Source of the DNA: Saccoglossus kowalevskii | Lineage: Eukaryota; Hemichordata; Enteropneusta; Harrimaniidae | NCBI RefSeq assembly: GCF_000003605.2 | Contig: NW_003114957.1 | Span: 196,761 to 260,760 of the forward strand | DNA length: 64,000 bases | Direction: 5' to 3' | Shown here: piece by piece, positions 24,230-59,548 of the stretch | Position numbering within the stretch: the first letter of the stretch is position 1 | How the letters are laid out: each line of letters begins with the position of its first letter | Notes under the pieces: generated by a model | Told to the model about the DNA's origin: nothing | The model's input: the letters and a program-made list of their open reading frames with translations, nothing else | Database searches by the model: none | Made by a program: the position numbers and the translations under genes

Positions 24230-24852
24230 AGAATTGTGAGTTTAGCTGGAAACCGTTGTAAATTCTTCTTTGTGTTCACTATGCAAATCGTATAATGAAA
24301 CATTTGAACATCTGTTAGTCACCATGTTCAACAATTACGAAATGAAGGCAGGGTGTAGTAATATTCAACAAATATAGTGTAATTAAGTAAATACAATTTA
24401 AGGTATTTTAAATGATGAAAATCTAATTTTGAACCACTTAATTTTACTGTTCAAAAAGTATATTTATTACCTTTAGAAGATATGCAACAGTCGCTTCTGC
24501 AATTGCGTTTAAATCACTAGTTCGTCAAAATAGGAAAATAGAGTTGGAAATAGCCCTATATAAAGGAAAGGAACAATATCACTACCGTTAATGGGAGTGC
24601 TTAAATGATTGGTTGGCTCAATACAAGTAAATTAATCTTTCTTTTAGTTTTTCTCACCACCGTATACCAGTCAGGGTTTGTCATGTACATTTTTGGGAGG
24701 TTTGTCATTATTTGTTTTGTATCTTTTTCTTTATTGCGAAATAAAAAAAAAAACATGTTAATAACACACAAAAACGAAACCATTGTAAAATAAGAGGTTT
24801 TAATCTGCCAGTAAATAACAAGCGATCTGACGGTCGAAATAGCTCCGCTATT
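24230..24852 (+). mobile_element. LINE (non-LTR) 3' end inserted in block B
   Basis: Absent from block A at the matching site (near 15325). One frame reads SLCSLCKSYNETFEHLLVTM, the Cys-x2-Cys...HLL zinc-binding motif found after the reverse transcriptase domain of many LINEs. Further on, in open frame, comes ATVASAIAFKSLVRQNRKIE then LEIALYKGKEQYHYR and a stop near 24590, typical of the protein's C-terminus. An A-rich tail with AAATAAA is at about 24740. It is 5'-truncated, with a stop between the two coding pieces. Confidence 0.65.
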
Positions 24853-25839: not shown

Positions 25840-25925
25840 AGCTGGCCCGTGTGTATGTTATAACCGCGTCGCCAAATTGGTTCAGGAAAACCAGTCTTTC
25901 ATGGAGTAAAAGTCTTTCTACCAAA
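25840..25925 (+). other. Conserved coding-like block (copy in B)
   Basis: Encodes LRELARVYVITASPNWFRK in an open frame of 99 codons (25662-25961) that has no other support. It matches the blocks at 16262 and 60700. Confidence 0.3.
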
Positions 25926-25942
25926 TGGTGTATTGTGTGCCT

Positions 25943-26098
25943 TTGTGTCAGCAAAATTTGACCCGCAAAATGCATGAAATATCGATTAATAGGGTCCAGA
26001 TTTCTAAACTTCTAAAGGGGGAGCATGTCCCCGGACCCCCGGTAAGGTCTGTGTTCAGATTTCGCCCCTCTATGTCAAATTTTGTGCCGCCGCCCCTG
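25943..26098. mobile_element. Truncated TIR element piece
   Basis: About 155 bp present in B but not in A. It contains a GGGGGAGCATG...CCCCGGACCCCC stretch and ends in CCGCCGCCCCTGG, the inverted form of CAGGGGCGG-type transposon ends such as the one at 38946. Confidence 0.5.
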
Positions 26099-27868
26099 GA
26101 GTTGGATCATATTCCTGTCTTGCCAAGCGTTAGACAAGATCACTCTATAAATATGGAAAGAGTTACATGCAAAGTTACCAGTAGAAGATATAATTGTTAT
26201 ACTAATGTCAATAAATACAGGGAAGGAACACATTGTTACGCTTCGCATAGCAACAACGACATTCTTTTCTTGTTAGTATTTATTTATATTATTATTCGAA
26301 CAAAGTCGATTCTAAAACGTTCATTTAAATTACTGGTAGAACAAGTTTATGTAGCCATGTTTAGGGATATTTAGAACAATATTGTTGCCCGATCTGCGCA
26401 TGTGCACATTTCAATATTCTACTCCTGTTAATTTACTACATCGCATGCAGTTCATTCAAACGCAATACACTTGAAGCATTCCTTACAGTAACTAACACTT
26501 GACTACGATAACTTCGATCTAGAACGACACGTAATTTTGATAATAAATTTGAAATTACTTGCTTGTTTATAAATGCGCAACTGGCTTCTGTCGGATTTCT
26601 AAAAATAACTATCATTATATCAACACTCATTGTTCTCCAAATGTGCATGCGCAGTTCTGATGACAATTCCGCTTTTTCAGTCCAGCGCAAAGCGGCGAAG
26701 TATAAAGTAGTAAAAACAAGCGATGGCAGTGATGCTAGTAACGAATAATTACGCTGAACTAATATTTGTCGTACGACCTTAATCAGTATGTTCTAAAACA
26801 TGCATATGGTTGAAATGCACGCCTTCTTTAAAACACGAGGTCAACAATTCTGGGACAGAAAATGATGACCGAAACTTCATACATCCAAACACCTTCTTTG
26901 ATGAGGATACACTAAATTTTTTCGAATGTCCATTTCATCGAATGACCATTTTGTTATATATCGTTATTAAATTCTGGGGTGATATAAATTAATGAAAATC
27001 ATTGTTTTGTTGAAATGTTGTTGTGCTCTTGGATGTACATGAAACATCAATGCTACTTCCCTTTTTTCGATAAATAATAATTTGACTTCAGTATATTATT
27101 TATTTTTAGTAATTTTCATGTAAATTTACATTTAAATTCTCAACATCATTGTTTAGGCCTACAACTTTACTTTCGGGGTGTATTGAGTTTGACTTTTTTT
27201 TTACTGTCTCGGAGATTTGATTGTCCCATAACGTCCATGATTTGTGTAGTAATCCAGTGACTGTGTGCCAAGTGATTGATAAATTAATACAATGAAGTAC
27301 TTCAACTAAATTAGCAAAATATATTCATTTTTGAACGTAATTGACCGCCGTAATTCAACATAGCATAAATGTTTTCCGACACGCGAAATCAGAAATTAAA
27401 GATACGGTCATGAAATGAGAAAAATAATGAGAAGGTATTTGTAATTAAATTCCAAAACAATCTATGAAGCGAGTTGGGAAAAATATCAGTTTTGACAAAA
27501 AATTACAAAATTACAAAAAAAGTTCAAAATTGGAAATATTGGCACAAAACTAAAAAGCACTCATATTATTGGTTTTCAAGAAAATGAAATTGTTGTTAGT
27601 GTAATTGTTGGTGGACGGATGACGTATATGAACAGCTCTGCCCTGTCATCATGAACAGTTAATCAAAAAACAGTTTTTATAATGATCATCTATCTTATGC
27701 AAATAATTATGTTTCATTGAATTTTTCATGAGTCGAATTTGCCAGCCCATGATTTAAACAAATTTCTAAGTTAGAGTTTGCAAAAATACAAGTTACTTAG
27801 TGCATTGTGGTATGGTGACTGCGATACACCGTGCAATTACCAAAATATGCAGCCCATGGTTGAAAACA

Positions 27869-28538
27869 AGCGTGATTTTAGTGATATACGCTGCGTTACA
27901 CATCGAATCTAGAACCGTATAAAACTAGGCAGCGGAGGATTTGTGTATGAATCAAAGCTGACATTGCGATCTGTGGCTAATGAAGATCGTGCACCAACAA
28001 CGCACTGACATGGCTGAGCATAGTTTAAGTTGACATGTGAGGAAATGCCAGTTCTTTGAACCAACAGAGCAACAGTACCAATTCCCCGGGCGTTGTGAAC
28101 CCTGGACACTTAAACATGGTTTATATGGACATGATCTAATTCATCGAGACAATACATTGATTTATATATGTTCCTACAATTGTACATCTCGCATCATGAT
28201 GTAACGCTGGGATATATGACACATGACAATGGTATAGAGTTCAATCAAGATACACGTATCCGATTTTTATTATTTCCTAATTCTGTGTGTATGACAAAGA
28301 TCCACTACAGAAAGTATAGGAAACACTGTTAAAATTAAATAATACCAGTTGGCATGTAAATGATGACATTACAAGTGGGATACAAAATACATTACTATGA
28401 ATAACTGAAACATTGTTAAAGGTCAAATACATGCAAGCAACCCAAACTGCACATTACTATTGTCAAAATATACAAAATCAATATCATATCAGAGAGATAA
28501 AACACGGAAATTATGCATAAACAAGGTGTTCATATACA
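27869..28538. other. 0.67-kb stretch unique to block B
   Basis: Inserted in B (or lost from A) between GGTTGAAAACAA and TGAAGAAACA. The minus strand has a GC-richer open frame of 66 codons (28109-27909; residues include ARGIGTVALLVQRTGISSHV) that I do not recognise. Ends show no clear inverted repeats. Confidence 0.4.
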
Positions 28539-29475
28539 CTACAGTATGAAGAAACAGTTGCAAAGAATGTTTGTATTACATAATAATTCAGTGAAAATTA
28601 AACAGGCCCATGTACTATAAATGTATAATATCAGGACACAACAAAGACGATTTCTATCCTCACAATTGACGATTTCTAGCCTCAAAATATCAGATCTTAA
28701 CACCTGTTTAGTAATAAAGCAGTAGAGTAAGAATCTCAGTGAATTGAAAACTTAAGTGCAGATAAGTATATTTTTTACAGATAAACAGTGCATAGAATGA
28801 AATAAGTAGAATAAGTCTTCACAATTTGCAAAATGTCACGAAAATATCACAGAATCGCTATGACAGGAAGCAATCGACTATTTTTTAAGCAATAAAGCAC
28901 AAAATACTGAACAACGAAGTTTGTGATCATAAATGCAGTCGTCTGCACAACACGCGAAATACAAAAATACAAAACAAAACAATACAAAAGTTAAAACACC
29001 AGTCAAATGTACCTAACATACGAAAGAATAAAATCTTATCAGATACAAATTCAACATGACTGGCTGGATGGCAAAGATAACAATCTGATTACAAATATTA
29101 CAATTAGGTAAACAAATATGGCGAAAACGAATGAAGTGCGCATGCGCGTAGACTAATGATTTAAAACACAGATTAACGCCCTCACAATGAGTTTCCTGAC
29201 CCCAGTGCACAAATATTTATTTATTGGTGAAGAAGCTTTAAATGGGGGAGGACGGGGGAGGGGTGGAATCCAATACCCACAGTTGTGGTGCACATAAGTT
29301 TGCTGATCGTAGTTGACCCGACTGTGTGACGTCATGGCATTGCTGACATTTTATTCACTGACATTAAATTTTCTTTCTACTTAATTGTTTGTAAACAATT
29401 AACAATAACTCAAATGTATATGCATGTACGTAAGTGTATGCGTGTATGTATGTGTACGTTCGTAAAATAGTCAGT

Positions 29476-31209
29476 ACCTGCAACTGTACGACCATGTTAC
29501 TACATGTCTCGAAAGCTCTTCTATTATTTTCGTTTTCGCAAGTGCAAGCATAAACCTTCTCTTGCAAGACGCTTTCTTGAAGACTCACAAAATAAAGAAT
29601 TATGTGTTCACACAATTGTCTGCGTGTCAGAAAAAGAAAACAATTTTGGGAAATTGTTTGTGTGTTGTGTATTTGACTGAAGATGTGGCGTAAATTATTC
29701 CTAATGTAATCAAATTATCAAATTAAGAATGCCTAACACAGCTTCATAACACAATTCAGAAGTTTGGTATCCTAATCGTAGCGCACAAAGTTATTAACAA
29801 ACATTTCTGTCATTAAAATTATATTAAATCGGTATTGGTTTCATATCATCGCCTGTTGTATGTTTTCTGCACGTGGTACCGTTTTTCAAAAGACCAACAC
29901 TGTTTTTCCGGTACCAGTTCTTTTCCTTAACACATAAATTTGTAACACACTTCTTTTTGTTTATCACACGCGACATGAATGCAGACACTTTTTCTGAACA
30001 CGCATAGAAACCCCATGAATGGTATATTATAACCGCAATTAATTATTCTGACGTTACAATAGGCTTTGTTTATAAAAACAAATTATATGGATTTACCAGT
30101 GAATGTTATTAAACAACATTAATTGTAGCATTGTAATTGCTGCCCAAATTAATATATTTCAATCCTCGGCCTCGATCTCTTAACTATTTAGAAAATATTT
30201 AATGGAACTTGTGCATATTATTTTAGCCTTGACACAACGGACACGTTATTGAACACACCACTAAATTCTCGGCCGGAACCACGATAAGTTCTTCATGATT
30301 TCGCAAGATTGTACATGTGTTGTTGTCAATGTTATAAATATGGCCTTTAGTTGTATGAGATACCTTGGTACACTGTTGCATGTCACGCAATATGCAAAGC
30401 ACTTTCACTATAGTTTTCGAATTAAAAACAATGCAGAAAATGTATATTTTCCATTTTTCAAAGTACAGAAAAAGAACTTCATCGCTTTCTAATTTCAATT
30501 ATTTTGTTAGAACCCATTTTTTAAATCCCGGATATTGCTACAGGGGCTCCCTGAAACAACTGAGATGCCGTATAGAAATTGTCACTGAGATGACACCTGG
30601 GAATTACCACTGGGATGCCACCTGGGAATTGCCACTGACATGCCGTCTAGAAATTGCCACTGAGGTGCACCTGGGAATTACCAATGGGATACTTTCTAGA
30701 AAATGCCACCGAGATGAATTAACACTGAGATGCCGTCTAGAAATTGGCACTTAAATGCCGCTCAGAAATTACCACTGAGATGCCCCTTAGACATTGCGAC
30801 TACAATGAAACCTGGACGCATACATACTTTCGGAAGCTTTTCATTATACGCTAAATAAACCTTTTCAACAAAACCACATATTTTATTCGAAAACGTTAAT
30901 TGATACGTCTGGAATTTGTAAATTGTAAAATACTGCACATTTGTCATGATTGCTGATTCCAATGTACCAAGCGAATATAATTAATATATAAATAATATAA
31001 ACTACACGCTCCTTATAAAATAAACTGATCAACTGTGTATGATTACTGTCATCTACAGGAAATAATTTATTCTGGTCCGTTTTTATTTTCGTGTCAGACG
31101 ATACCAGCAATTTGTTTGTTGCGTGACCGGATCAATAAATTTGGACTTCTTTGTATTACACGTTTATTCTTGTACACCGATATGTGTGATACAACACTAC
31201 ACCGATAAG
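29476..31209 (+). other. 5' flank of sulfatase copy 1
   Basis: Matches the 5' flank of copy 2 (42060-43660) along most of its length, for example TCACACGCGACATGAA at 29965 and 42443 and the ATTATTCTGACGT phrase at 30042 and 42520. So the duplication that made copies 1 and 2 took about 1.7 kb of upstream DNA. Confidence 0.75.
30556..30815 (+). repeat. 25-bp minisatellite upstream of copy 1 (about 10 units)
   Basis: Diverged tandem units of the consensus GCCACTGAGATG-CGCCTAGAAATT (about 25 bp). The same family is expanded upstream of copy 2. Confidence 0.85.
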
Positions 31210-31267: not shown

Positions 31268-34200
31268 ATGAGTAGTCTCCATTGCATATTTGTTTTTCTG
31301 GCACTGGCAGTTGTCAGCAAGGTATGGAAAATGCTTAATTGCTTGTTTGTTTTAAGTTGACTACAGTATTTTTACTACATTAATTTTATTGGCTAATTGT
31401 TATGATTTATTGGTGGGCATTTATGATCGCAGGCTTGCTGATAAACATGGTTTCCTGCCAAGTCTGTGGCATGTTACTAAGGGTGCGTGTTCAAATTCCA
31501 TGTGGCTGGCACTGCAAATGTTTATTGGGTTGTACCAAAGTCTAATGAAAGAGAAAACATTGCATCCGATTAAGACGTTCAGTGTACCTTTTGTCAGTCA
31601 GTTGCCAATATTTGAATAAACTACAATCTTATTTTCGCCTCGCTTAAGACTTTTTGTTGAAATTTGTTAATAAAAAATGCAAATTAAGTATTCTTAAACT
31701 AACAAATATGATTAAAACAAATAGTGCCCCACCACAATCGGTGTCGATATTAACAGCTGCATTCACTCCCGTCGCCAATTGTGTTATCAACCTCGTGCAC
31801 CACGATTAATATATCAACATTTTGATATCTGTTTTTAGCAGACCTTTGAATTTTGTTATGAAGATATGTTAGACACTCTTAATTTTATAACCTGATATCA
31901 CTAAATGACAGTGCTTCTCGTTATAAACTTCGTGCGCCACGATTTATATATCAAACTTATGAATTTTGTTTTGTTTGTAGTGCATTCTTAATTTGATAAT
32001 CTGATTACATTAGAAATATTTTACGTCACATCAGATGATATATATTATAGAGGCTTAAAAAAGCAGTCACGATTTTAAAGTAGCTATAATTTCATATATG
32101 CATATCATTTTTCAAATTATTGTTACATTATGTTGGCATAGTTCCCTTCAGTTAATGACTAACATATCAGAAACAGAAGATACGGCAATTCATTGTTTTC
32201 GGCCTTCCACATATTAAAATTATAAGACTATTTATTTATTAACAAACTCTAACTAGCAATATGATAACGCTTTTCTTCGAATGTTTTTAAATGTATGTCC
32301 TCAGATACAGCTCCGTATGTTTTAGACTGATTATATCCGAATAGTACGTTTAAAAAAATGATGGATATTTCCATTTAACTATAGTTTTTTGAGGGTATGC
32401 TTCAATTTACCCTGAAATTTTTTCAAATAAACACTTTTTTTTAACTTTTCCGTGGCGTGTTTCTAGAGTAGTCGATTGTTGGTTATGTAATCATGCCATA
32501 TATATGTACTGCTATTTCCACTACCAGAAAGATATCTTTATAATATACCATAAATTAAATAAATTTGCGATTGTTGTTTGAATTCTTATTTAAATTTTAT
32601 GTAACCACGGATTAAAAACATTTTATATTATTGTTGATATAAACTCCTTGAATTGGTAATGAATATATTATTATAGTTGTAATAAAATGATGTTGCATTT
32701 ATTAACATAGAATTTAATTTATTTTGTATTACAGCCTAGCATTGCTGATGAAGGTAAGAATGTGTTTTTAATTTTTACGTAATTTGCGGAAGTTCCAGGG
32801 AACATTTAGTTACAGTATTTGTAATAAATGAACGAGCATTTTGGCTATAAGATGTTTTGAACATACCAGAAAATCCGCGAATCGATACTGTACGAAATCG
32901 CTCGTTTGTTAGATTTGTAGTTGTATGTAATTACCGCGTTGATTGGCTGTTTTTAGAATTGTCGTCTTTCGTGACAGGTCACCATCGTGTCGATAAGGTC
33001 TTATTGCTTAAGTATTGAATGTTCTTCGGTTGATGGTTAGCTGATTTTGTATGTATTATTTTTTGAATTTGTATCGTGTGGCACACAGTCACAATCTATA
33101 CTTACCAACATGGTCCACGATTCAACGTCCACAAGCATATGAGGTTACAGAGAGAATGTCATAAATTATGCACACAAACATTCGTTTGTTAAAACATTCA
33201 ATACCACATATTATGCACACAACATACTAGTTGTACTGCGTTGTAATGCTATACATTTAGATCTATTCATTTATTTTTATCAGATCAACCGCATGTTATT
33301 CTAATATTTGTGGATGACATGGGATGGAATGACGTACATTGGCACAACCCTGATATTGCAATGCCCAACTTGATGGATCTCGCCGACGATGGCGTCATAT
33401 TCGAACAGTCTTACACCCATCCCACATGTACACCGTAAGTGATAATATCGTTATTGTGAATGGAATGTAGTTAAAATTGTTCATTCAAGTGTAATACCAA
33501 TATGTGTAATTACATGATAGCATATAGGTTAAAGTTGAATTTTAGTGTCTTGCGTCAATCATAACTTTTGCGCTGGTACAGCATCACGACAAAAAGTGTC
33601 TCTATCCTGTGTATATGCAATATACATCTTAATTACTATACTATATATATATATATATGTAATTCTTTAGATCAAGAGCTGCTATGATGACGGGATTGTA
33701 TCCTTTCAAAACAGGAAATCAAGTAAGAATTTGTTTTTATATTTGAACACAATTTATCTTGCTTTCAATTCAGATTTACTTGCAAATTACGTTACTAAAT
33801 ACGTTTGACCAATATATTGATAAATGCCACTTCCCAATGTTGTCTTAATTCTCAATAATTAAATTTATTATATAGATTGTATTTATATTTATATTTATTT
33901 ACAGCATCAAATGGTGTTCAACCTTCATCCTAGTGGGGTTCCATTGAATTTCAAACTATTACCAGAAAAACTTAAAGAAGTTGGATACGCTACTCATATG
34001 GTTGGAAAGTAAGTAGACAAATTGAACGTGTTTATTACAATCTGATGATATTTGTGTTTTCAAAAAAAGACAGCAAACCATAACTCTAAAACAAACATTT
34101 GACATTAAGTAATTATCTTACTTTACTCATACAATTTTAGCACACCTTGTTTTGTGGATTTCAGAAACAAACCTAAATGCGATGTGATGCTTTAGGATAT

Positions 34201-37200
34201 CAGTAGCATGCAATGAAATACTGTAAATAACATATAATCATAATATAATATATATCAAGAATATTTCTAAATATTTCTATTATATATTTCTTATTTCTAA
34301 ATGTTTTCCAAATTTGTTTTTAGATGGCATTTAGGGTTCTGTAAAGATGAGTATCTACCAACAAATCGTGGTTTTGACTCACACTATGGTCTATGGACAT
34401 TGGGCGTCGGTGACTACGATAAATTGAACGGAGTACTATGTAAGTTAACTATTGACAAAACAGTATTTTGTCTAAGTACATTGTTTTGTTCACTTCAACT
34501 ATGTGTTACAAACATGCCAGAAAAGAGATTGTTATGTCGGATTTATAGTCTTTGTCACAAATGTTCTACAAATTTACTAATAAGTTTTGTTATTTTTCAA
34601 GTATTTCAGTTCAGTATTAAATAATACTAAAAGAAAGTTCTGCGCATATTCGGATGTTTAACTTTACGTCTGAGATATTGTTCATAATGCATCCTTACAA
34701 TAGAGTTCCATTGTACACCCTGTAGTCCCAAATTATATGTGACTACGAATGTTACAGTAATGGTATTATGCCACAGATATGATAACAAATTGTTGTGAGC
34801 GGGTCAATTGAGATGGATATTTGACTTGTCCAATTCACCCATCTTGATTTGTCTTTCCAGCTCCTTCGGCAGGATATGACTTCCGTGACAACTTGGAAGT
34901 GGTACCAAAAAGTGACGGTTATCTTGCAGTGAGTATATGTATTATTATCGTCATAATTTAATGTCTTTGTCATTTGGTATTTGAGATAGAGTCTCAGTAT
35001 ACACTCATTGATCAACATCTTATTTATACTGTTTATTAAAATTGTAGTAAAGATTGATGCCATGCATTCAAGATTCTGGTGAAAAACAAAGAAATAATAT
35101 ATTGTCAAATTATATCATATCATATCATATCTTTCTTTCTACAGTTAATGCTTGGTGATAGAGCAGAGGAAATAGTAAATAATCATTCCCCAGAAACTCC
35201 ACTGTTCCTTGTGTTTACGCTGGACATCCCTGCTAAGCATCTGGAGGTAAATATCTTATTCTGTTGGTTACAGTAAATTAACAACAATAGTACAATAAAG
35301 ATAAATTTAGTCTACTAGAAGGAACTCCTTTAAAGGAGATAATCAAAACATGCATATGATGTCAGTTTCTTATTATATGTGTACATGTTTTTATTTGTTA
35401 CGTGTATACATTTATATGTGTGTGACATTCTTCAGATTCCAGAAGAGTATGAAGAACTATATGCAGATATCGAAGATGATAGAACTAGGCAATTTTATGG
35501 TATGTGAAGCAATTCCATATGAATATAGTTGTATCTAAGGATATTAATACCTGGCTTGGGACACCACACGTCATTCAAGTAAAAATCAAAACAATTATCA
35601 CAGGGCATTCTTGGTCATTAGTACGATGATAAATGACACGACAAGGCATCATATGGCATTCCTTCCAATCCTTTCAGTTGTAATATATGATTGCCAAATT
35701 TGAAAATGAAAAGAAAAACATTTTAGTATTTTTACTATTACAGGAAAGTTGACTATGATGGACGATATAATTGGCGGTGTAGTGGATGCGTTGAAAGACC
35801 GTGACATGTATGACGATTCGCTATTCATATTCATAGGAGACGTAAGTGTCTAATGTGTGATATTTTTAGTTAATTTGTTTAATCATTGTAAACGTGTTGA
35901 TGTTTTACTCACTTTATGACTTTCTGTAGTTGAGTTCATATACGAATACACATTCACATGAGTAGTTAACCTCTCTCTCTTGAATAAAGTTTAAAGAAAG
36001 CATCGGCCTGTTTATATTTATTGATCTGAATTTTGAACCGTTGTTTATTTTTATTTATTTTTAAAAAATATTTTTTGTGGCAGGCGACAGTTCCGGACAT
36101 TTAGTGTAACTGTTGTCTCTCCTGACCTTTTTTCTGTATGTGCAAATTGCAAGTGCTAGTGCCATTTTGCCACATAAGTCATATTAATGTTTGGGACTAC
36201 ATAACAGGGCTGTGTGGCCATCTCTCTGTCAAATGGCAATTTAACCAAGGTTCCCCCAAAGTCGCATTCGTTAGTGAATGAATCGTCGGCCAGTGGAATT
36301 GGCCTTGCCATTGAGTCTGTGGCACACTCACCCTTGGTAGGAGTCGACCCTTTGATGTTCAGCCTAAGGTAGGATTTGAACTTGGGTCTACCGATCATGA
36401 GTCTGATGCGACAACCACTATGCTACCAGTTAGTGTTTATATTTATTTACACAGAATGGAGCGTTATCATCTCAAGCTGGGTCCAACTATCCATTCCGCG
36501 GTATTGCTGGAACGCTGTTTGAGGGCGCTACTCGCGTACCATCTATTGTCAGTGGGAAAGGAATAGAGAAGACTGGATATAAAAGCAATGAGTAAGTTGA
36601 GTGATTGACAATTTCACAACCGTGCTCACACCTAATTTTAATGTCTTAGTTGGTGTCATTGACAAAATGTAAACTATATAAACATATAATCTGATTCTGT
36701 TGAGAAGTCATTACTCTATCCGATTATTCATGTATAAGACTTTCCGCATTGTTGTTTTGAACCTTTAATTAAGTTAATTTCCACTTGGTTCATAGGTTAT
36801 ACAGCATAGTCGATATACACAGAACAATCCTTGATGTGGCTGGGGCAAAAGCTGGTGAGTTAATACAAGTATTTTGTCAACTTTTATGTTTCGCCATATA
36901 AGGTCAGATAATAGGCGTTTTGACATTTACAACGAATTACTATAATTTGTTAAATTGTATTTGATAGAGCCTGAACTTGACGGTTTAAGTATGTGGCCTA
37001 CATGGTCAGAAGATGAACCATCGCCAAGAAATGAAATTATCTATAATATCGATGATGATCCAGTGTCCCCTGGTGCTGCTATCAGGTAAGCAATGATATA
37101 TTTATATGTGTATGAGGGGTTAGTTGGGTAAAAAGCTGTTTTTATTTCTGGTTTGTGAACAAGAATTGAAAAATTAGTTTGTATTAATATTTAGAATAGT

Positions 37201-38270
37201 AGTAACTGAATAAATGATCCAGCAAATGAAAACGAGTGTGTTCTGCAAAACAATGTTCTATTCTATATATCACGAACCTATGGTGGAATATAACATATAT
37301 GCATACATACTCATCATGAATTATCTTTTGTATGTTTTAAGGATCGGAGACTATAAACTGATTACAGGACATCCGGATTTATTGTATCCATATCGGGATA
37401 TCCGTTTAACAGGTAAACATATATGCACCCAAAGAATTCTCGGTTGAAATTTTATCAACCAAATTACTGAAAGCTTATTGTATATGGATGTAGAGGGGAT
37501 AGTGAATACAGTGGATTTGCATTCACCATGTCTCATTATGATTACACGATCTGACACATGTCAATGTATATTTATTTCAGATAACTATTACAACTACGGT
37601 GACCCCCCAGCAAGCGGATTGCCAACTACAGATCAAGAAGCAAACGCACCGGCTCCACAGAACGTAGAATACTTGTTCAATATCGTAGGTAAGAATGATG
37701 TTTTGTTTTTGGAGAATGAAGACAGAATGATTAGGCAAATTATGAACATACAAACAAGCACAGCCACTAATTCGAAGCGTATAGTCCCTCGATGCAGACG
37801 CGCGCATTGATCGCCACTCACAAACGACGCTTCTAAACATGTTTTCAATGTGTATATACTGCCACTTCCAAAGTGAGTATTTTATTCATTCAATACAAAA
37901 ACGTGTAAATTGTGCAAAATCGTGAAATGCTACTCCTATCTTACTGCATGCTCATTTGAGATTATTTTCAGGTTAACACCAGTGGCATTAGTGGCCTCCA
38001 CGCTGTTTGACATGTTATTTTGTTATTTCCACTCATGAAAAACGAACATTGAAGAGGTGTCATATGAATAACTACTAATGTCTCTCTTTCAATGCAGATG
38101 ACCCAGAAGAACGACACGACATCTCCGCTGACAATCAAGATATAGTACAAGATTTACGTGATCGATTGGATGAACATCGTAAATTGCTACATCCACCAGT
38201 AAACCAAACAACAGAGCTAGCCGGTTCCGCCGCGAATTTTAATGATGTCTGGTCGCCTGGTTGGTGTTAA
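31268..38270 (+). CDS. Sulfatase (ARSB/I/J-like), copy 1, 16 exons
   Basis: Full-length 497-residue sulfatase-family protein (human ARSB has 533). Coding exons: 31268-31321, 32735-32753, 33284-33434, 33671-33722, 33905-34008, 34324-34439, 34861-34928, 35145-35246, 35436-35499, 35744-35841, 36455-36591, 36796-36854, 36968-37085, 37342-37412, 37581-37688, 38098-38270; all junctions are GT/AG and in frame. A hydrophobic signal peptide (about residues 1-22) implies secretion or lysosomal targeting. Seen motifs: metal-binding D35-D36 in [13 protein letters not shown], formylglycine motif C73-T-P-S-R77, K127 and H129 in MVGKWHLG, D276-N277 in GDNG, and C-terminal VWSPGWC matching the ARSB VWGPW end. 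In an ungapped alignment ARSB His242 corresponds to Ala218 and Lys318 to Ala294, so two normally invariant sulfate-contacting residues are missing. There is an N-Q-T sequon near the C-terminus. Enzymatic activity is therefore uncertain; substrate unknown. Confidence 0.95.
36055..36435 (-). mobile_element. tRNA-derived SINE in intron 10 of copy 1
   Basis: On the minus strand 36427-36368 is tRNA-like: A box TAGCATAGTGG and B-box-like AAGTTCAAATCC, with a CTCATGA loop. The body runs to lower coordinates and ends in an AAATAAA-type tail near 36050-36065. The matching intron of copy 2 (370 bp against 613 bp) lacks it, so it inserted in copy 1 after the duplication, or was removed from copy 2 by conversion. 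Confidence 0.75.
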
Positions 38271-42821: not shown

Positions 42822-43420
42822 GCCGCATTTATGCCACCTAAAAATGACCACCTATAAATTGCCACTGAGATGCCACCTAGAAATTGTCACTGAGAAGGTC
42901 GTCTAGAAAATGCCACTGATATGCTGCCTAGAAATTGCCACTGAGATGGCGCATAGAAATTGCCACTGATACAGCCTATAAATTACCACTGGGATGGTCA
43001 TCTAGAAATTACCACTGATATCGCGCCTAGAAATTGACACTGGGATGCCGCCTGTAAATTGCCACTGAGATGGTCGTCTAGAAATTGTCACTGAGATGAT
43101 CGTCTATAAATTGCCACTGCTATGGCGCATAGAAATTGCCACTGAGATGGCGCCTAGAAATTGCCACTGAGATGGCGCCTAGAAATTGCCACTGGTATAC
43201 CGCCTATAAATTGCCACTGAGATGCCGCCTATGAGTTGCCACATGTATGCCGCCTAGAAATTACCACTGATATGGTCGTCTATAAATTGCCACTGGGATG
43301 CCGCCTAGACATTGTGACTGAATGGTCTTCTAGAAATTGCCACTAAGATAGCGCCTAGAAATTACCACTGAGATGTCGTCTATAAATTGCCACTGAGATG
43401 GCGCCCATAAATTGCTCTTA
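42822..43420 (+). repeat. 25-bp minisatellite upstream of copy 2 (about 25 units)
   Basis: Tandem units of about 25-26 bp, consensus GCCACTGAGATGGCGCCTAG plus AAATT; two neighbouring units near 43141-43190 are identical. The array ends about 300 bp before the ATG of copy 2. Confidence 0.9.
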
Positions 43421-43721: not shown

Positions 43722-46700
43722 ATGTGTAGTCTACATTGTATAGTTATTTTCATAGCACTGGCAGTTGTCAGCAAGGTAAGTAACCAAAAACTGTTTCAAA
43801 ACATCAAATGGACTTTCTAATTTTTGCATAAATTTTATTGGCCAAAAATTTCGTTATTTTGAATATTACAGAATGGCAGATTTATTGGTGAACATTCATG
43901 GTCTCAGACTAGCTGGTGAAAATAGTTTACTTTACTATCCATGGCATGCGATGGTGTTTTCATGTAACGTATTTAGTTCAATTTATAACGTGCTCTCTGA
44001 TACAGAGGACGCGTGTTGTATCAGATTGTAGCCGACAATCTCCCTCAGAAATAATAGTTGTCAATATTTGAATAAATTACAATTTTATTTTTTGCGCCAT
44101 TTAAAATACTTTGTTATTTAGTTTGTAAATGTTCAGGAAGCATGAACATCTATCGCGACTACAAATCTGAAATATAACCTGACGCTATCCGAATTTGTAA
44201 TGTAAATTATGATTTCTTTTGTATTACAGCCTTGTATTGCTGGTGCAGGTAAGACTTGCTTATTCATATTTGGAGAATGTTTTAGGATTTCCTAATCTTC
44301 AAAGCACAAAGTTGGGGAAGAGGAACAGTCAATAAATTTGTAGTAACTGTAATCATGGAATGCGTATTTTCGCTATAAGAAGTTCTGAACATTCCAGAAA
44401 CGTGAATGTTTCAAATATTAACATGTTATGGAATGGCAAATGTTGGATTTGTAATTGTATCGAATGACCGCGTTGGTTGGCTGTTTTGTTATTATCGTCT
44501 TTCATTACCGATTGACACCATCGTGTTGGTAATGTCTCATATTCAACGTTCTCCAGTGAATAGTATTTATTTTGTATGTATTATTTTGAATTTTGTATCG
44601 AATGGCACAAAGGGAATAATGTTTCATGATTCAATGGCAACAAGTATATGACGTTTAGCAAGTATATCATGAATTATGCACGAAAGTAGTACGATGATCT
44701 TTGCGCATTTGTCCTGCCATAGTATTAAATTATACCGATTACTTACATTTGTTAAAACATTCCATACCACACATTATACATACAATATACTAGTTGAGCT
44801 ATGTTGCAATGTTATACATTTATATTCATTCCTTCATGATTTATCAGATCAACCGCATATTATTCTAATATTTGTGGATGACATGGGATGGAATGACGTA
44901 CATTGGCACAACCCTGATATCGCAATGCCCAACTTGATGGATATCGCCGCTGATGGCGTCATATTCGAACAATCATATACCCATCCCACATGTACACCGT
45001 AAGTGATAATATTGTTAATGTGAGTGGAATGTAGATATAAATTGTTCATTCAAGTTTAATATCAGTATGTGTAATTACATGATAGCATACTGTGTCTCGC
45101 TTAAAGTGTAGCTCATAGGCTGGTACAGCATGTCGAAAAAAAGTGTCTTGTTTCCTATGTATATGCAATATACATCTGAATTGTTATACTATATTTATAT
45201 TTATTTTTATATTTACATTTACATGCAATTTTTCAGATCAAGAGCTGCTATGATGACGGGATTGTATCCTTTCAAAACAGGAAATCAGGTGAGATTTTTT
45301 TTGCAGTATATGTTAAATTAATAACGTCACAAAATAAATTTGACGATTATCTTGAATAATGTGACATAACGCTCATTAATTGATAATTAATTAATTAATC
45401 AATCAATTCTGTTCATATGTATTTTACAGCATCAAATGGTGTTCAACCTTCATCCCAGTGGGGTTCCATTGGAATTTAAGCTTTTACCAGAAAAACTTAA
45501 AGAAGTTGGATACGCTACTCATATGGTGGGAAAGTAAGTAGAACATAGCATATAAAAATTAAACTTATATTTGTTTGGTGCACTATAAATTATACCATTG
45601 CAAAGCAGCGAGCCTAATCTAATTCTCAGCATTACGTATTTGTGTTATCAAACAAAGGCAGAAAAGAAACGTGATGCTACAATAACCAATTTTAATAAAC
45701 GTACCCTTGCTATAAGCTTAGATAATTTGAAAACATCTCGTTTAATGGCCGGGGTATTCTAAACACGTTGACCCATAGGCGTGAACGCCTAAACATGATG
45801 AGATGTTAAAAAATATCGGTAAATAACATTGTACGTGGGTGCTACTTTGACACAAAGTATAAGTCACACGCAATGATAGAAAGCAATTAATATATAGATA
45901 CAGTCAAGGATATTTCTAAATATTTCTATCATATATTTCTTATTTCTAAATGTTTTCTAAATTTATTTGTTTAGATGGCATTTAGGGTTCTGTAAAGATG
46001 AGTATCTACCAACAAATCGTGGCTTTGACTCTCACTATGGTCTATGGACATTGGGAGTTGGTGATTACGATAAATTGAATGGAGTGCTATGTAAGTCAAC
46101 TATTAGTAAAACAATACACTTATTCATATATGTGACATATGTATATGACATTTTGCGATGGTTATGAAAATAAATTCTTATGATCGGGTCAACTTAGATG
46201 GATGTTTAACTAGCTCAATTCTCTCATCTTTGAAATAATCTCTGTTTTTCTAGCTCCTTCAGAAGGGTATGATTTCCGTGACAACATGGGAGTGGTACCA
46301 AAGAGTAACAGTTATCTTGCAGTGAGTATAGTATGAAGTTATTACGAGAATACCTCAAAGTGTGCACGAAGACAGTACATCTAGAATATCGACCGACGCG
46401 CAGCGTACTGTCTGAGTGCATACTTTGAGATATTTTCGTATTAACCTGTTTAGAACAGAATCAGCATACTTTTTTGTGGAGGGTCCAGTCAAACGCTGGT
46501 GGCAGCCTCGTTTGTTTTTATTTTTAGAGGACGCTTACGCGCATAATCATTCCATATTTGGAATTCGTATTTTCTAATATGGTAGGATGAAAATACAACT
46601 TAAAATACCGCAAAATTACGGCTCGCTGTAACTTATGGCGTTAGGATGACAAATGTATAATAATTAGTATTATTGTTAATTAGATGCAAACGTTTTTGGC

Positions 46701-49700
46701 ATCGCGTATTTGAGATGGAACTCGCTATACACACATTGATCAGCAAATTCTTTCTTATATTGTTTATGAGAAATTAAGTAAAGAAGGATGCCAGCTTTTG
46801 GGATTCTCTTGAAAAGTTGATAATAATACATCGACAAATCATATCATTATATCTTTCTTCTCTACAGTTAATGCTTGGTGATAGGGCAGAGCATATAGTA
46901 AATAACCATTACCCAGGAACTCCACTATTTCTTACGTTTACTCTGGACATCCCTGCTAAGCATCTGGAGGTAACTATTTCATTCTGGTTGTTACAGTGAA
47001 TTAACAACAATAGTACAATTAACTTGAATATAGTCTGCTTGAAGAAAATCCGACAAAGCGGATAGTCAAAACATGCCTATGCTGCCAGTTTTTATTTTAT
47101 TTGTTACGGACATACACTTATGTGTGTTTGTGTTCCCAAAGATTCCAGAAAACTATGAAGAAAAGTATGCAAATATTAAAGACGACAGAACTAGACAATT
47201 TTATGGTATGTATTCCACATAAGCATAGTTATATTCAGGGCCATTACATCATGTTATCAAATGAACCCTTCAACTATAATCATAATGCATTCTTATTTAT
47301 TAGTACGGTGGTACATATACCCTTAAAATGCCAGACCATCTTCGGTTTATCACCCACTATTCAATGAGTATCATAGTGTACAACACAACCGGGGATTCGG
47401 GAACATTCCTCCCTGCCCTGGTCAAAAAAATACTAAAAAATGATTGCTCTAATGTGTCAAATGAAATAAACAAATATTTCAGTATTTTTACTATTGCAGG
47501 AAAGTTGACTATGATGGACGATATAATTGGCGGAGTGGTTGATGCGTTGAAAAACCGTGGAATGTATGACGATTCGCTAATAATATTCATAGGTGACGTA
47601 AGTGTCGGACGTATTATATGTTCAGTTGAATTTTTTTAATCATTGTAGTAATTTAGCCACTGCATGACTACCTTTAGTTGTCTTTCCATTGGCCAATCTT
47701 CTCTGTCATTTGAGTTCAGATCAGGAGACAGATTAATTGAGATATTTATGATCTTTTTATGTGGAATAATACTCAGTCAGGCTTAAAGAAAGCATCGCCT
47801 AATTTATATTTATCAGTTTGAATTCTGAACTTCATCGTCGAGCATAATCCATCTTTGCGTACAGATATATGCCAGAATGTTCTCACACAGATTTCATCAT
47901 TTATGACATGAGTTGTTTTCCCTGTTTGTATCCTCCAAATATCCATCTATTATGTTTATTTTGTACAGAATGGAGCGTTATCATCTCAAGCTGGGTCCAA
48001 CTATCCATTCCGCGGTATTGCCGGAACGCTGTTTGAGGGCGCTACTCGTGTACCATCTATTGTCAGTGGGAAGGGTATAAAGAAGACTGGATATGAAAGC
48101 AATGAGTAAGTTAATTGTGGTAATTGGAATTCTCATAACCATGCTCGTGACAAGGTTTATACTCCCGCTATCAATGTATGTCTTAGTTAGTGCCAATGGC
48201 AATATACAGCATAAAATACGCTTCCATAAAAGTAATGTAACCTGACCCGTCAGTCGTGTATGAAATATGCCGCATTGTTGTTATGAACTACTATTCTAAA
48301 TTTGGCATTTGCCAGATAAGTTAATTTACAATTACTTCTCAGGTTATACAGCATAGTCGATATTCACAGAACAATTCTTGATGTGGCTGGAGCAAAAGCT
48401 GGTAAGTTAACATAATTATTCAGTAGTATTTCATGTCTGACCGGAGAATGTTAGATGGTAGGCGTTGTTACATTTACATCGAGTATTTATAATTTGTTTC
48501 GTATTATACTTAACAGAGCCTGAACTAGACGGTTTAAGTATGTGGCCTACATGGTCAAAAGGTAAACCATCGCCAAGAAATGAAATCATCTATAATATCG
48601 ATGATGATCCAGTGTCACCTGGTGCTGCTATCAGGTAAGCACTGATATATGTATGCATGAGGGATTAATTGGGTATACATAACTGTTTTCATTTCCGTTT
48701 TTTGTAGAATAATTGAAATATTACTTTGTATTATATCATTTAGAATAACCGCATAAATGTTCTAGCAAATGAAACAAGTGTGTGTGCTGCAAAACAATGT
48801 TCTATTCTATATATGACGAACCTGTGGTGAAATATAACATATATGTATACAATCATGTCATGAATTATGTTTTGTATGTTTTTAGGATTGGAGACTATAA
48901 ACTGATTACAGGACACCCTGATTTATTGTATCCATATCGGGATATCAGTTTAACAGGTAAACACAACGATTTAAATTTTATCTTTAAGTTAACCAAAATA
49001 CTGAAAGATGGATATTGAAGGTAGTGGATTTGCATTTACCATGTCTCAATCTGACTACATAATCTGACACATGTCAATGTATATTTATTTCAGATAACTA
49101 TTACAACTACGGTGACCCCCCAGCAAGCGGATTGCCAACTACAGATCAAGAAGCAAACGCACCGGCTCCACAGAACGTAGAATACTTGTTCAATATCGTA
49201 GGTAAGAATGATGTTTTGTTTTTGGAGAATGAAGACAGAATGATTAGACAAATTATGAACATACAAACAAGCACAGCCACTAATTCAAAGCGTATAGTCC
49301 CTCGATGCAGACGCGCGCATTGGTCGCCACTCACAAACTACGCTTCTAAACATGTTTTCAATGTGTATATACTGCCACTTCCAAAGTGAGTATTCTATTC
49401 ACTCAATACAAAAACGTGTAAATTGTGCAAAATCGTGAAATGCTACTCCTATCTTACTGCATGCTCATTTGAGATTATTTTCAGATTAACACCAGTGGCA
49501 TTAGTGGCCTCCACGCTGTTTGACATGTTATTTTGTTATTTCCACTCATGAAAAACGAACATTGAAGAGGTGTCATATGAATAACTACTAATGTCTCTCT
49601 TTCAATGCAGATGACCCAGAAGAACGACACGACATCTCCGCTGACAATCAAGATATTGTACAAGAGTTACGTGATCGATTGGATGAACATCGTAAATTGC

Positions 49701-49783
49701 TACATCCACCAGTAAACCAAACAACAGAGCTAGCCGGTTCCGCCGCGAATTTTAATGATGTTTGGTCGCCTGGTTGGTGTTAA
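43722..49783 (+). CDS. Sulfatase (ARSB/I/J-like), copy 2, 16 exons
   Basis: Same architecture and length (497 codons) as copy 1. Coding exons: 43722-43775, 44230-44248, 44848-44998, 45237-45288, 45430-45533, 45975-46090, 46254-46321, 46868-46969, 47142-47205, 47500-47597, 47969-48105, 48343-48401, 48517-48634, 48886-48956, 49094-49201, 49611-49783; every exon has the same length and phase as its partner. Signal peptide [18 protein letters not shown]. Keeps D35-D36, CTPSR, K127/H129 and D276-N277. Like copy 1 it has Ala at the positions of ARSB His242 and Lys318 (in DIPAKHLE and [11 protein letters not shown]). The frame stays open past exon 15 into intron 15 for about 60 codons, so intron retention would give another C-terminus. 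No disabling change was found. The intron pattern groups with copy 3 in places and with copy 1 at the 3' end. Confidence 0.95.
46338..46445. mobile_element. Fold-back MITE in intron 7 of copy 2
   Basis: About 108 bp that is almost wholly palindromic: left arm GTTATTACGAGAATACCTCA then AAGTGTGCAC...GACAGTAC, right arm the inverted GTTAATACGAAAATATCTCA form, about 40 bp per arm. Absent from the matching introns of copies 1 and 3. Confidence 0.75.
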
Positions 49784-54203: not shown

Positions 54204-57200
54204 TTAACACCAACCAGGCGACCAGACACCATTAAAATTACCGGCGGCACCGGCTAGCTCTGTTGTTTGGTTTACTGGTGAAACTAGCAGTTTACGATGT
54301 TCATCCAATCGAGCACGTAAATCCTGTACTATATCTGGATGATCAGCGGAGATGTCGTTTCTTTCTTCTGGGTCAACTGCATTGAAAGAGAGACATTATC
54401 ACCTTAGTATTGAATCAATAGAACTGACAAGTTACAGTGACAAGACGCTTTGCTTTAAAAGAAAACAAGAAAAATCCACCACTCTTACCTACGACATTGA
54501 ACAAGTATTCTACGTTCTGTGGAGCCGGTGCGTATGATTGTTGGTCTGTACTTGGCAATCCGCTTGCCGGGGCGTCACCATAATTGTAATAGTTATCTGA
54601 AATAAATATACATTGACATGCGTCAGATTGTGTCGTCAAATTGAGACATTGTAAATGCAATTCCACTGCCTTCAACATCCATACATACATCTTTGGTTCT
54701 AATAACATTTCAATCGAACATTCTATAGGTGTTACCTGTTAAACCGATGTCCCGATATGGATACAATAAATCCGGGTGTCCTGTAATCAGTTTATAGTCT
54801 CCGATCCTAAAAAAATACAAAACATATTTCAAGACATGATTGTATGCATATATGTTATATTCCACCATTGGTTCGTGATATATAGAATAGAACATTGTTT
54901 TGCAGAACATACTCTTGTTTTCATTTGCTGGATCAATTATTCAGTTATTCTAAATGATAATATAAAATCATCTTTCATGATATAATTACGAAACAACCCT
55001 CTCTGTAAATACATATATAATTATATCATTGCTTACCTGATAGCAGCACCAGGGGACACTGGATCATCATCGATATTATAGAGGATTTCCCTTCTTGGCG
55101 ATGGTAGATCTTCTGACCATGTAGGCCACATACTTAAACCGTCAAGTTCAGGCTCTGTCAAGTATAATACGAAACAGATTATATAGAAACTTGATGACAA
55201 ATCGGCCACTATTCAACAGTAAGTGACGAAATATAATACTTGGAAATTGTACTGAATTATTTTGTTAACTTACCAGCTTTAGCTCCAGCCACATCAAGGA
55301 TTGTTCTGTGTATATCAACTATGCTGTATAACTTATGAAAGTGGAAATAAACTTATGTTACCTGGGAAATGGTCAAAAGTATAGATCAAAACAAACCCGA
55401 CGAGCCTGTCAGGGTGCATGTTTCCTGAAATACTCACATTTTTAGAAAACGTATTTTATATGATATATTGTCATTGGTACTGACTGAGACATTAAATAAA
55501 CCGGGATATTATCTTAGTCATGAGTATCTTTGGAAAATTGTCAATTATCAAAATTAACTTACTCATTGCTTTCATATCCAGTCTTCTTTATTCCCTTCCC
55601 ACTGACAATAGATGGGACACAAGTAGCGCCCTCAAACAGAGTTCCAGCAATACCGCGGAATGGATAGTTGGAGCCGGATTGGGACGATAACGCTCCATTC
55701 TGTGTAAATAAATAAATAAATAAATATTTGGACGACACAAACTGGGAAATCAAGTCAATATTATTATCTTAAATGTGAAATCTGATAGAGGACATTTTGA
55801 AATATCTACGCGGAAAGATAGATTATGCTCGGTGAGAATGTTCAAAATTGAAAATTATAAATATATCTTTAAATCCGTATTTTGATTTGAAGTAAAATAA
55901 CACGGATACTGGCCAATACAAAGACAACTTCAGATAAAGTGGCTGTAACGTAAACGCGTTTACAATGATGAAACAAATTAACAGAACATATCACACGTTG
56001 GACACTTACGTCTCCTATAAATATTATTAGCGAATCGTCATACATTCCACGGTTCTTCAGCGCATCAACCACTCCGCCAATTATATCGTCCATCATAGTC
56101 AACTTTCCTGCAATAGTGAAAATACTAAAATGATTTTCTCTTCATTTGGCAATCATCATATTACAATTTAGAAATTGTATTTATTACCAGGGTAGGAAGG
56201 AATGTAGTTATATCCCTTGCCTTGTAATTTAACATCGTACTAATAATTACGAATGCATTATGCCCTAGGCCAGGAATTAAGTGTCCTAGATACAAATATG
56301 TGTTTATTGAATTACACCACTTACCATAAAATTGCCTTGTTCTATCATCTTCGATTTCGGCATACTTATCTTCATACTCTTCTGGAATCTGGAAAAACAA
56401 CACACACAAATGTATATAAGTTATAAATAAAAACAAACAAAGAAATACATATACATTTGTCATCAAAGACTTTTGTGTCCTCTTGGTGGATTTCTTCTAG
56501 TAGACTAATTGAAGTTGAGTTTACTATTGTTTTACTGTAACCAATAGAATATAATAGTTACCTCCAGATGCTTAGCAGGGATGTCCAGAGTAAACGTAAG
56601 AAATAGTGGAGTTCCTGGGTAATGGGTATTTACGATATGCTCTGCTCTCCAAGCATTAACTGCAGAGAAGAAAAATATTATGATATAATTTGTCGATTTA
56701 TTATTTCATATTTTGTTATATTTTCACCAGAATCTCGAAGGCGTGGCATCATTCTTTACTTAATATAAAAATGAAGATGCGATTCAATGCGTGAATAGCG
56801 ACTTTCTCAAAATACAATATGTCAAATATGTGTGTTTATAACAATAATATTAATCATACTCACTGCAAGATAATCGTCACTTTTTGGTACCACTCCCATG
56901 TTGTCACGGAAATCATATCCTGCTGAAGGAGCTAGAAAGACAAATCAATTCAAGGATGAGTGAATTGAATTCTAGTATAACTCGGTCGATTCGGCCAAAA
57001 GAAATTGTTATCATACCATGGTGTAATATAACTACTGTCATGATCATATTCACATATATGAATTGTTATTGTTTTTACTCAAAGTTAACTTACATAGTAC
57101 TCCATTCATTTTATCGTAGTCACCGAATCCCAATGTCCATAGACCATAGTGTGAGTCAAAACCACGATTTGTTGGTAAATACTCATCCTTACAGAATCCT

Positions 57201-59548
57201 AAATGCCATCTAAAAACAAATTTAGAACTTAGAAATATATAATAGAAATAGTATTAGAAATAGTTTTGATAGTATCTATATATTATTTGCTTTCTGTCCA
57301 TACGCGAAACTTTTACCGATATCATTTAATATCATCGTTCGTAGGCGTTCAAGCCTACGGGTCAATTTGTTTCTGAAAACTATTAAAATTAAACGAGATG
57401 TTTTCGAATTGTATGTTTATAGGAAGAGTATAGTTTGTATACAATGTTTGTTGTAGCATTATTGGTAACGTTACTTTCTTCCTTATGTTTAAAAACACAA
57501 ATATCACCAGTATGTAATGCTGGGAATGAGATCAAGCTATCAACAATGCAGTCGCATAACCCTTAGTACAGCAAACAAATGTAAGTTCAATGTGATACAT
57601 GCTATGGTCTACTTACTTCCCTACCATATGAGTAGAGTATCCAACTTCTTTAAGTTTTTCTGGTAATAGCTTGAATTCCAATGGAACCCCACTAGGGTGA
57701 AGGTTGAACACCATTTGATGCTGTAAGTAATTATAAAAAACAATTTATTTAGGATTTTTAAGTAATTAATAATTACTAAGTCATAATTGGGAAGTGACAA
57801 TTCAGATGTATATTACAAATACACAAAGTAGAGAGTGCGGGATTTACAATTCAAACAAGACACTGAAATCGAAATTAAACTGTTCGCTGTTATATAATTA
57901 CGCATGTTAATATTGAATTTAACTGAATGTCATGCATAGTAACGATATTATCACTTACGGTGTACACGTTGGATGGGTGCATGATTGGTTGAAGGTGACG
58001 CCATCAGCGGCGAGATCCATCAAGTTGGGCATTGCGATATCAGGGTTGTGCCAATGCACGTCATTCCACCCCATGTCATCCACAAATATTAGAATAATAT
58101 GCGGTTGATCTGATAAAAATTATTAAGGGAAGAATATGAAATTATTGAATTATAACATAGCTCAACATAAAAACATAGCCCAACTAGTATATTGTGCGTA
58201 ATGAATGGTATTGAATGTTTTAACAAATTAATGTAATTATTATGAATTAATAGTATTGCAAGAAAAACATATCGACCAATAAGATAATCGTACTTCTTTC
58301 GTGCATAATTAATAATATTCTCCATATAATCTTATATACTTGTTAATGTTGAATTGTGAAACGCACAAAATGAACTGGTGAAAAATTTGACAATATTTTT
58401 TTATCTTTTAAATTAATGTGTTCGCCATCATCGTCATATAGATACTCCTGTACAACTACACATCTAAATAACATGTCATTCCGACGCATCTTGATATTTG
58501 AGACACATAGGTTTTCTGGATCGTTCAGAACCTCTTATAGCGACATTCGTTGACCGATTAAAAATACTATAGCCAAATGTAGATAGTTCCCACTTCCCCA
58601 ACTTTGTGCTTTCAAGATTAGGAAATTGACAAAATTCTTTGACATTAACCGAAATTCCCGCCGCATGAATAAATAATTCTTACCTGCTTCAGCAATACAA
58701 GGCTGTAATACAAAAGAAACCAGTTATTAAATGAAGAAATAAAATATGAATGAAAATATATAAACATTTGTTGCCTTGGCAATACTAGTATATTCATAAT
58801 ATGATTACACGACCAGCCATCGTCTAATATGAATCACGTCATGGGTAATTTTGAAAGGAATTGATCTGTCCGGCCAAAATAAAACAACACTAAAAAACTT
58901 ATATGCATGAAAATATCCACTAATTTGTTGAAACCTATAATTTGGATAACATCAGACTAAAACATGCCACAATTTATCTTTTAAAAACGTTTGTGTATAT
59001 GGATTTTCAAGTATTCAAATTACGATCATATAATAATCGATTAATTGGATAATAAAAAAACAGAAATACGTTATCACAATTTTGAATATATAGCGTCACC
59101 ATTCCAAAATACATGACAACCGAACACGGAGAATCACCGTGCCATGTGATTCTAATAGTCAAAAAAAATTGCGGAACCTATCCAAGAATAACAGTCGTTA
59201 TAAAAGCGATACATTGTCCATGCAGAACTGAACGTCTTATTCAGATATAACGTCCTCTTCCATTGGATGTACACACTCTTCGGTAACGCCCTATACGCCC
59301 TATAGTTTTAGTGTCTGTCGCACGACACTTTAACACGCGCAGTGAACGCACTATATTAAGTTGAACTAAATGCAACTAAATACAATGCAGTAAACCCAAT
59401 ATTTTCCCTAACTTGTCTGAAACCAACAATTTTCAACAAGAAAATTTTCCAAACAATACATTTGGTATTGTTTTCTAAACATGTCGCTTGTTACCTTGGC
59501 AACTGCCAGCGCCAGAAAGACAACTATGCAATGTAGACTACTCATCAT
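54204..59548 (-). pseudogene. Sulfatase (ARSB/I/J-like), copy 3, lacking exon 4
   Basis: Fifteen of the 16 exons are present, high to low: 59548-59495, 58702-58684, 58109-57959, (exon 4 absent), 57720-57617, 57209-57094, 56931-56864, 56659-56563, 56388-56325, 56107-56010, 55699-55563, 55331-55274, 55154-55037, 54806-54736, 54596-54489, 54376-54204. Exon 4, which completes CTPSR and carries [15 protein letters not shown], was removed by a deletion of about 190 bp whose junction lies near 57797; joining exon 3 to exon 5 shifts the frame (52 bp lost). Exon 8 is 5 bp short (a 4-base loss after the LMLG codons and one C lost in the IPAK codons), and the acceptor of exon 12 is shifted by one base through a G-to-A change. 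A conserved Arg in GATRVP is Cys. Most other exons are intact and the promoter and poly(A) signal survive, so it may still be transcribed. A recent, decaying gene copy. Confidence 0.9.

Follow-up and report, generated by a model that had tools for sequence, protein, structure and literature searches.

The 64,000-nucleotide stretch of Saccoglossus kowalevskii DNA analysed here (the window; C843:196761-260760) carries genes resembling human arylsulfatase B (ARSB) in which two residues that contact the sulfate group are replaced by alanine, and the question it raises is whether the encoded proteins still work as sulfatases. The window is AT-rich animal DNA (34% GC) with three ARSB-like genes, copies 1 and 2 on the forward strand and copy 3 on the reverse strand (Table 1). 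Copies 1 and 2 are intact, each with 497 codons in 16 exons: the signal exon comes first, the second exon has only 19 nt, and another 14 follow, in consistent phase and with GT/AG at the splice borders. The Pfam match of copy 1 to PF00884 runs from position 1 to 301 of the 301 positions of the model and thus covers the whole catalytic domain. Copy 3 is a pseudogene, as it lacks the 52-nt exon 2, which bears SR of the CTPSR motif, has lost 4 bp from exon 6 and reads 'aa' at the acceptor of exon 10. A viral origin of these genes was rejected, one scan of viral contigs being without match and the genes having 16 exons.

Table 1. Features of the three ARSB-like genes, in positions of the window; residue numbers (among them Ala218, His220 and Ala294) follow the whole protein.
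Feature	Position	Strand	Remarks
Copy 1, whole gene	31268-38270	+	Intact, 497 aa
Copy 1, signal-peptide exon	31268..31321	+	Hydrophobic, with donor; similar in copies 1-3; signal judged by eye
Copy 1, 19-nt second exon (PSIADE+G)	32735..32753	+	Phase restored to next exon; match in copies 2 and 3
Copy 1, remaining 14 exons	33284..38270	+	473 codons, open frame, GT/AG borders; Pfam Sulfatase, E-value 1.6e-48
Copy 1, metal ligands Asp35-Asp36 (ARSB D53/D54)	33313..33318	+	From alignment to 1FSU
Copy 1, CTPSR formylglycine motif (Cys73)	33427..33677	+	Split by intron 33435-33670
Copy 1, Lys127 and His129 of GKWHLG (ARSB K145/H147)	34007..34330	+	Lys codon split by intron
Copy 1, exon with lost His242 position	35145..35246	+	
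Copy 1, Ala218 (ARSB His242 position), Lys219, His220	35232..35240	+	Ala218 at 35232-35234; Lys219 invariant in subfamily, His220 not conserved
Copy 1, metal ligand Asp276 (ARSB D300)	35839..35841	+	From alignment to 1FSU
Copy 1, Asn277 (ARSB N301)	36455-36457	+	From alignment to 1FSU
Copy 1, exon with lost Lys318 position	36455..36591	+	
Copy 1, Ala294 (ARSB Lys318 position)	36506..36508	+	From alignments to 1FSU
Copy 2, whole gene	43722-49783	+	Intact
Copy 2, signal-peptide exon	43722..43775	+	Similar to copies 1 and 3
Copy 2, 19-nt exon	44230-44248	+	Counterpart of copy 1 second exon
Copy 2, remaining 14 exons	44848..49783	+	Intact; Ala/Ala pair as in copy 1
Copy 3, pseudogene	54204..59545	-	Ala at both positions; signal exon present

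Several other features of the window were recorded. Exon 13 is identical between copies 1 and 2 (37581-37688 and 49094-49201; 0/108 differences), while the other 13 exons differ by 2-17%; the identity extends into the flanking introns and is likely a gene-conversion tract. A 25-bp minisatellite (unit like CCTAGAAATTGCCACTGAGATGCCG) is found at 30559-30795 and at 42847-43415, in both cases 0.3-0.5 kb upstream of the signal exon of copy 1 or 2. There is also a segmental tandem duplication (15247-18706 and 24160-28786) with blocks that are 82-94% identical at a spacing of 8.9-10.1 kb, which looks non-coding, since differences in the ten blocks examined are mostly spread over the codon positions. 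A second duplicated pair (22539-23125 and 28881-29455) is 78-95% identical with a spacing of 6.3 kb. Among the 31 ORFs listed, the ten of at least 100 aa that lie outside the sulfatase genes had no Pfam match, and a search of the window against Rfam gave no match.

The initial annotation had placed Ala218 and Ala294 of copies 1 and 2 at the positions of His242 and Lys318 of ARSB. This placement was reproduced with phmmer and MAFFT against the ARSB structure 1FSU, with no gaps from PLFL to FEG, and by global alignment; ARSB numbering, taken as the 1FSU chain index plus 41, yields D53, D54, K145, H147, H242, D300, N301 and K318. Over the 94 residues of the PLFL-FEG span, the highest-scoring global alignment of copy 1 with ARSB is gap-free (BLOSUM62 score 179). 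Copy 3, described at first as having Ala at the Lys318 position, which is correct, has Ala at the His242 position as well, and both S-subsite residues are therefore missing in copies 1-3. The rest of the site was also as initially described for copies 1 and 2, with the metal ligands, CTPSR and GKWHLG retained and the formylglycine-binding Arg, Lys and His all present, while the CTPSR motif of copy 3 is broken. The role that had been assigned to the missing pair agrees with Table 2 of PMC4014121, in which ARSB H242 and K318 are given as 'sulfate binding' and matched to ARSA H229/K302 and PaAtsA H211/K375. These residues are rarely replaced, His211 being conserved in 99% and Lys375 in 96% of formylglycine sulfatases according to section 8 of the SulfAtlas paper (PMC5066984), and a passage of PMC10154612 calls the S subsite of S1 sulfatases invariant.

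The 572-Mb, 4830-contig genome assembly was searched with copy 1, and at least 20 loci of the same subfamily were recognised, as judged by the first mature exon. Eight of these lie on contig C843, three on C3655 and two on C4507, with one each on C166, C2048, C2543, C1967, C367, C2602 and C3897; the total is a lower bound, as the genome search scores the best candidates only. Exons were read from all 20 loci, with C3655b consisting of N after exon 4. At the His242 position there were 13 Ala, 5 Gly and a single His (C3897) among 19 loci, and at the Lys318 position 12 Ala and 4 Ile among 16, damaged copies and pseudogenes being included in both counts. Relatives with the same Ala/Ala pair, which it had been suggested to look for, occur in the same genome among the members read of the clade of the window genes (A-clade), and a second clade (G-clade) has Gly and Ile instead. 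The loss is not special to the paralogues of the window but common to the subfamily, and an assembly or reading error in one copy was rejected because the pair is missing at many loci. The window holds part of a tandem array of this animal S1 sulfatase subfamily. Four canonical ARSB-like paralogues (L109-L112), fetched from among many in the same genome, keep both His and Lys (4/4), and L111 and L112 both carry GKWHLG.

Genome-wide, PF00884 gave 118 exon-level matches, and many sulfatase genes beyond the subfamily are present, with clusters on C2176, C3460, C1420 and C2107. A mitochondrial stretch with cox1, nad1 and cox2 (L114) was also encountered, and is best read with TGA as Trp, AAA as Lys, ATA as Ile and possibly AGA as Ser, a code that would suit a hemichordate such as an acorn worm.

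Maximum-likelihood analysis separated the subfamily from human ARSB, the canonical paralogues and bacteria by a branch with 100% support in the newick file, the re-rooted printout having 84 at the subfamily node. Human ARSB clusters with the four canonical paralogues to the exclusion of the subfamily (100% support). When examined as possible ARSB orthologues, the subfamily members did not group inside the ARSB clade, and with rooting on bacteria the subfamily is the sister of the ARSB/canonical clade. From the double loss across the loci together with this placement, the pair would most simply have been lost on the long stem of the subfamily and not in the window array. This is an old subfamily marked by the loss of the pair, with many members intact and conserved, and the loss is more than chance, given the 99% and 96% conservation elsewhere, the disappearance of both residues together and its being common to the whole clade. 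The only locus with His at the His242 position, C3897, is the sister of C1967 inside the subfamily (99%); Arg replaces the Gly of its GKWH motif, and exons 8-14 were not found in the 8.3 kb read. It was considered as an ancestral form, which was rejected, and is read as a decayed fragment, being the sole result against a clean statement about all members. C367 groups weakly (33% support), which makes the position of the subfamily root uncertain, and the Gly/Ile state of the G-clade could be either ancestral or derived.

The same comparison bears on whether the pair has truly gone. An ordinary active sulfatase with a shifted pocket, where a bulge of one or two residues puts Lys219 or His220 at the place of His242, would draw on alternative alignments that are only slightly worse, since forcing Lys219 onto His242 costs 19 BLOSUM units and His220 costs 12. 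The His at 220, two residues past Ala218, is indeed present in copies 1 and 2, but among the readable core members it is found in only 10 of 17, the others having F, S or A, whereas the neighbouring Lys219 is invariant. The initial suggestion that His220 might fill the pocket thus finds no backing in the subfamily, and as a replacement catalytic residue it was rejected, being confined to one sub-clade and not conserved. Moreover, the loci read have P-x(10)-A/G where SulfAtlas gives P-x(10)-H, with the spacing unchanged, and Lys318 is without a substitute. Misalignment as the default cause was rejected, as the ungapped placement of Ala218 wins, though by only 12-19 BLOSUM units, and an active sulfatase with a shifted pocket appears improbable.

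The initial annotation had described the pair alone as lost, which holds for the A-clade. There, D35, D36, Cys73, Arg77, Gly126, His129, D276 and N277 are present in 9/9 loci counted, the four metal ligands (D, D, D, N) included; copy 3, C843_288k, C843_296k, C843_303k and C3897 were dropped from this count. Lys127, which has a split codon, is present in the six A-clade loci for which a spliced protein was obtained, and the Ser of CTPSR is Thr in one of the nine. Protein identity within the clade goes down to about 63% and 51% of sites are invariant, so that the chance of nine random sites all being invariant is 0.002 (about 0.004 for eight), although core sites are slow anyway. In the G-clade, further residues have changed. 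The first metal Asp is Glu in five loci and Gln in C3655a, where the formylglycine Cys is in addition replaced by Ser (S-T-P-S-R) while all 14 exons are open. The formylglycine Cys is therefore lost in one intact gene of the sister clade, and Ser is not known to be accepted by the animal formylglycine maturation enzyme. At single loci the histidine of K-W-H is also altered, to Asp in C367, whose exons are without visible defect, and to Asn in C4507b, which has a stop in its gene model and counts little.

A further possibility is decay, with neutral losses in a gene family that is dying out. Six of the 20 loci show damage in the form of stop codons, deletions, absent exons or a destroyed splice site (copy 3, C843_288k, C843_296k, C843_303k, C4507b and C3897), while eight are intact, with all 14 exons open and with splice borders (copies 1 and 2, C843_273k, C843_353k, C166, C4507a, C2543 and C3655a); the other six, C2048, C1967, C2602, C3655b, C3655c and C367 (in pieces), were incompletely read. 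The dN/dS ratio is 0.17 between copies 1 and 2, and between 0.14 and 0.37 in 15 subfamily pairs, among them C3655a with 0.27 against the intact C4507a and 0.33 against the damaged C4507b. However, pseudogene copy 3 also gives low values (0.26 against copy 1, 0.20 against copy 2), so a low ratio cannot vouch for any one copy but records shared history, and a recent death of more copies would be invisible to it. Catalytic residues lost under purifying selection, the mark of a pseudoenzyme, are thus found here, with dN/dS low for the pseudogene copy too. Against decay of the whole stand the eight fully read intact loci, dN/dS ratios that stay under 0.4 for every one of the 15 pairs computed, the constancy of the Ala/Ala pair across the deep divergence of the A-clade and the expansion of the array. 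Decay had been doubted from the start, and for copies 1 and 2, which are open and have the Ala/Ala pair beside a kept metal/formylglycine site, that judgement stands; it does not extend to all relatives, as copy 3, three other C843 copies with stops, C4507b and C3897 are decaying. The subfamily looks like a birth-and-death tandem family that is not dying as a whole, and neutral loss in a dying family is considered very improbable.

The vacated position is flanked by Lys219, which is present in 19/19 loci but in neither ARSB nor any of the four canonical relatives. Further subfamily-specific lysines are found at 134 (18/18), 160 (17/17) and 245 (17/18). A side observation concerns cysteines: a Cys follows GKWHLGF in 18/18 core loci (Cys133 of copy 1, 34340-34342) and in 0/3 canonical relatives read there, and copies 1 and 2 have a C-terminal GWC (Cys497 of copy 1, 38265-38267); the two cysteines may form a subfamily-specific disulfide.

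Such an invariant lysine invites the explanation of altered chemistry, whereby A-clade proteins would be formylglycine enzymes in which Lys219 does the leaving-group protonation or the sulfate contact, with a changed substrate or pH range. In its favour, the A-clade retains the other catalytic residues, the genome encodes homologues of PF03781, the family of the formylglycine-generating enzyme, and according to SulfAtlas a replaced His211 mostly becomes Lys, in ten sequences (PMC5066984). Yet Lys219 is equally invariant in G-clade loci with a changed catalytic Cys or metal Asp, so its conservation needs no catalysis; the Lys318 position has no substitute, being A or I in 16/16 loci, and the ungapped alignment sets Lys219 one residue off. 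Because it is fixed even where the formylglycine Cys or metal Asp has changed, we infer that Lys219 is a ligand or structural residue and not a catalytic one. Altered chemistry is considered rather unlikely.

As judged from their sequences, the subfamily proteins probably no longer work as ordinary sulfatases, and our preferred reading, to which we give a probability of about 0.57, is that of a sulfatase-derived family without normal turnover that binds sulfated ligands. The ancestor of the subfamily would have lost both S-subsite residues (ARSB His242 and Lys318), with an invariant Lys beside the lost His. The proteins are predicted to fold and to be secreted, and those of the window's clade may still hold calcium and probably formylglycine. 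With neither a leaving-group His nor a sulfate-binding Lys, they would not be expected to turn over sulfate esters as ARSB does, but sulfated glycans or metabolites could be held by the half-site of K127, H129, R77 and the metal together with lysines 134, 160, 219 and 245. The sister clade would have been able to dispense even with the formylglycine Cys, and it is these further losses that favour a non-catalytic role over changed chemistry. Against a purely binding role, the eight other active-site residues never vary in the nine A-clade loci; the core is conserved more than pure binding needs, so formylglycine and metal may still matter in this clade. A more elaborate and rather doubtful variant is a secreted family that kept the metal/formylglycine core and swapped the S subsite for a lysine-lined pocket. 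In this variant the formylglycine of the A-clade might catalyse a new reaction, or might let the proteins act as receptors that trap sulfated molecules, covalently or as ligands, and the G-clade would be purely binding.

The fold, the family and the existence of putatively inactive bacterial sulfatases are known already, the last from PMC5066984. Among the matches listed from the open-access literature, no sulfatase was found with the S-subsite pair lost and the core kept, and no open-access paper was found to combine 'arylsulfatase' with 'pseudoenzyme'. For a pseudoenzyme review (PMC10211241) no use of the word 'sulfatase' is listed, and passages of a paper on snail arylsulfatases (PMC5519703) do not touch on loss of the pair. 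With half of an 'invariant' site gone, the other half retained in one clade and no fewer than 20 loci in the genome, the subfamily amounts to a natural experiment that could reveal what each active-site residue is needed for and how a receptor arises from an enzyme. A further implication is that some proteins labelled automatically as 'arylsulfatase B-like' may not remove sulfate.

In comparison with known systems, human ARSB (1FSU) and the four canonical paralogues share with the subfamily the sulfatase fold family, the metal ligands, the C/T-P-S-R type motif and K145/H147, with identities of 35-45% between the subfamily and ARSB, L109 and L112; they differ in keeping His242 and Lys318 and in forming their own clade. 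The next-best solved relatives after 1FSU are the bacterial iota-carrageenan sulfatases 6BIA, 6B0J and 6B0K, with both residues kept. Among bacterial relatives found by patterns containing the DD and GKWH motifs, 78 of the best 80 of 570 confirmed have His and Lys. Two sequences from the Burkholderiales (Betaproteobacteria; L013 and L066) are like the subfamily in having Ala at the His242 position, in a PAQ that recalls PAK. Unlike the window genes, they have Arg at Lys318, Ser for the formylglycine Cys, and H/L or R/Q in place of the Lys/His of GKWH, which is a wider change and makes them candidates for bacterial pseudo-sulfatases on sequence grounds. Ser at the formylglycine Cys position can serve in some bacteria. 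The sea urchin Ars, reportedly an extracellular-matrix component of the sulfatase family proposed to bind sulfated polysaccharide, can be likened to the subfamily in the binding role proposed for both. A precedent for natural loss of catalytic residues is provided by the putatively inactive S1 sulfatases of Lentisphaerae and Planctomycetes, nine sequences in which the Arg of CxPxR is lost, as given in the SulfAtlas paper (PMC5066984); they differ from the subfamily in that the S-subsite pair is not what they lost. The phosphonate monoester hydrolase BcPMH also belongs to the superfamily and has an altered active site in which, as listed in Table 2 of PMC4014121, Tyr105 and Thr107 replace the formylglycine-binding Lys/His while His218/Lys337 are kept, and in this respect it is the mirror image of the subfamily.
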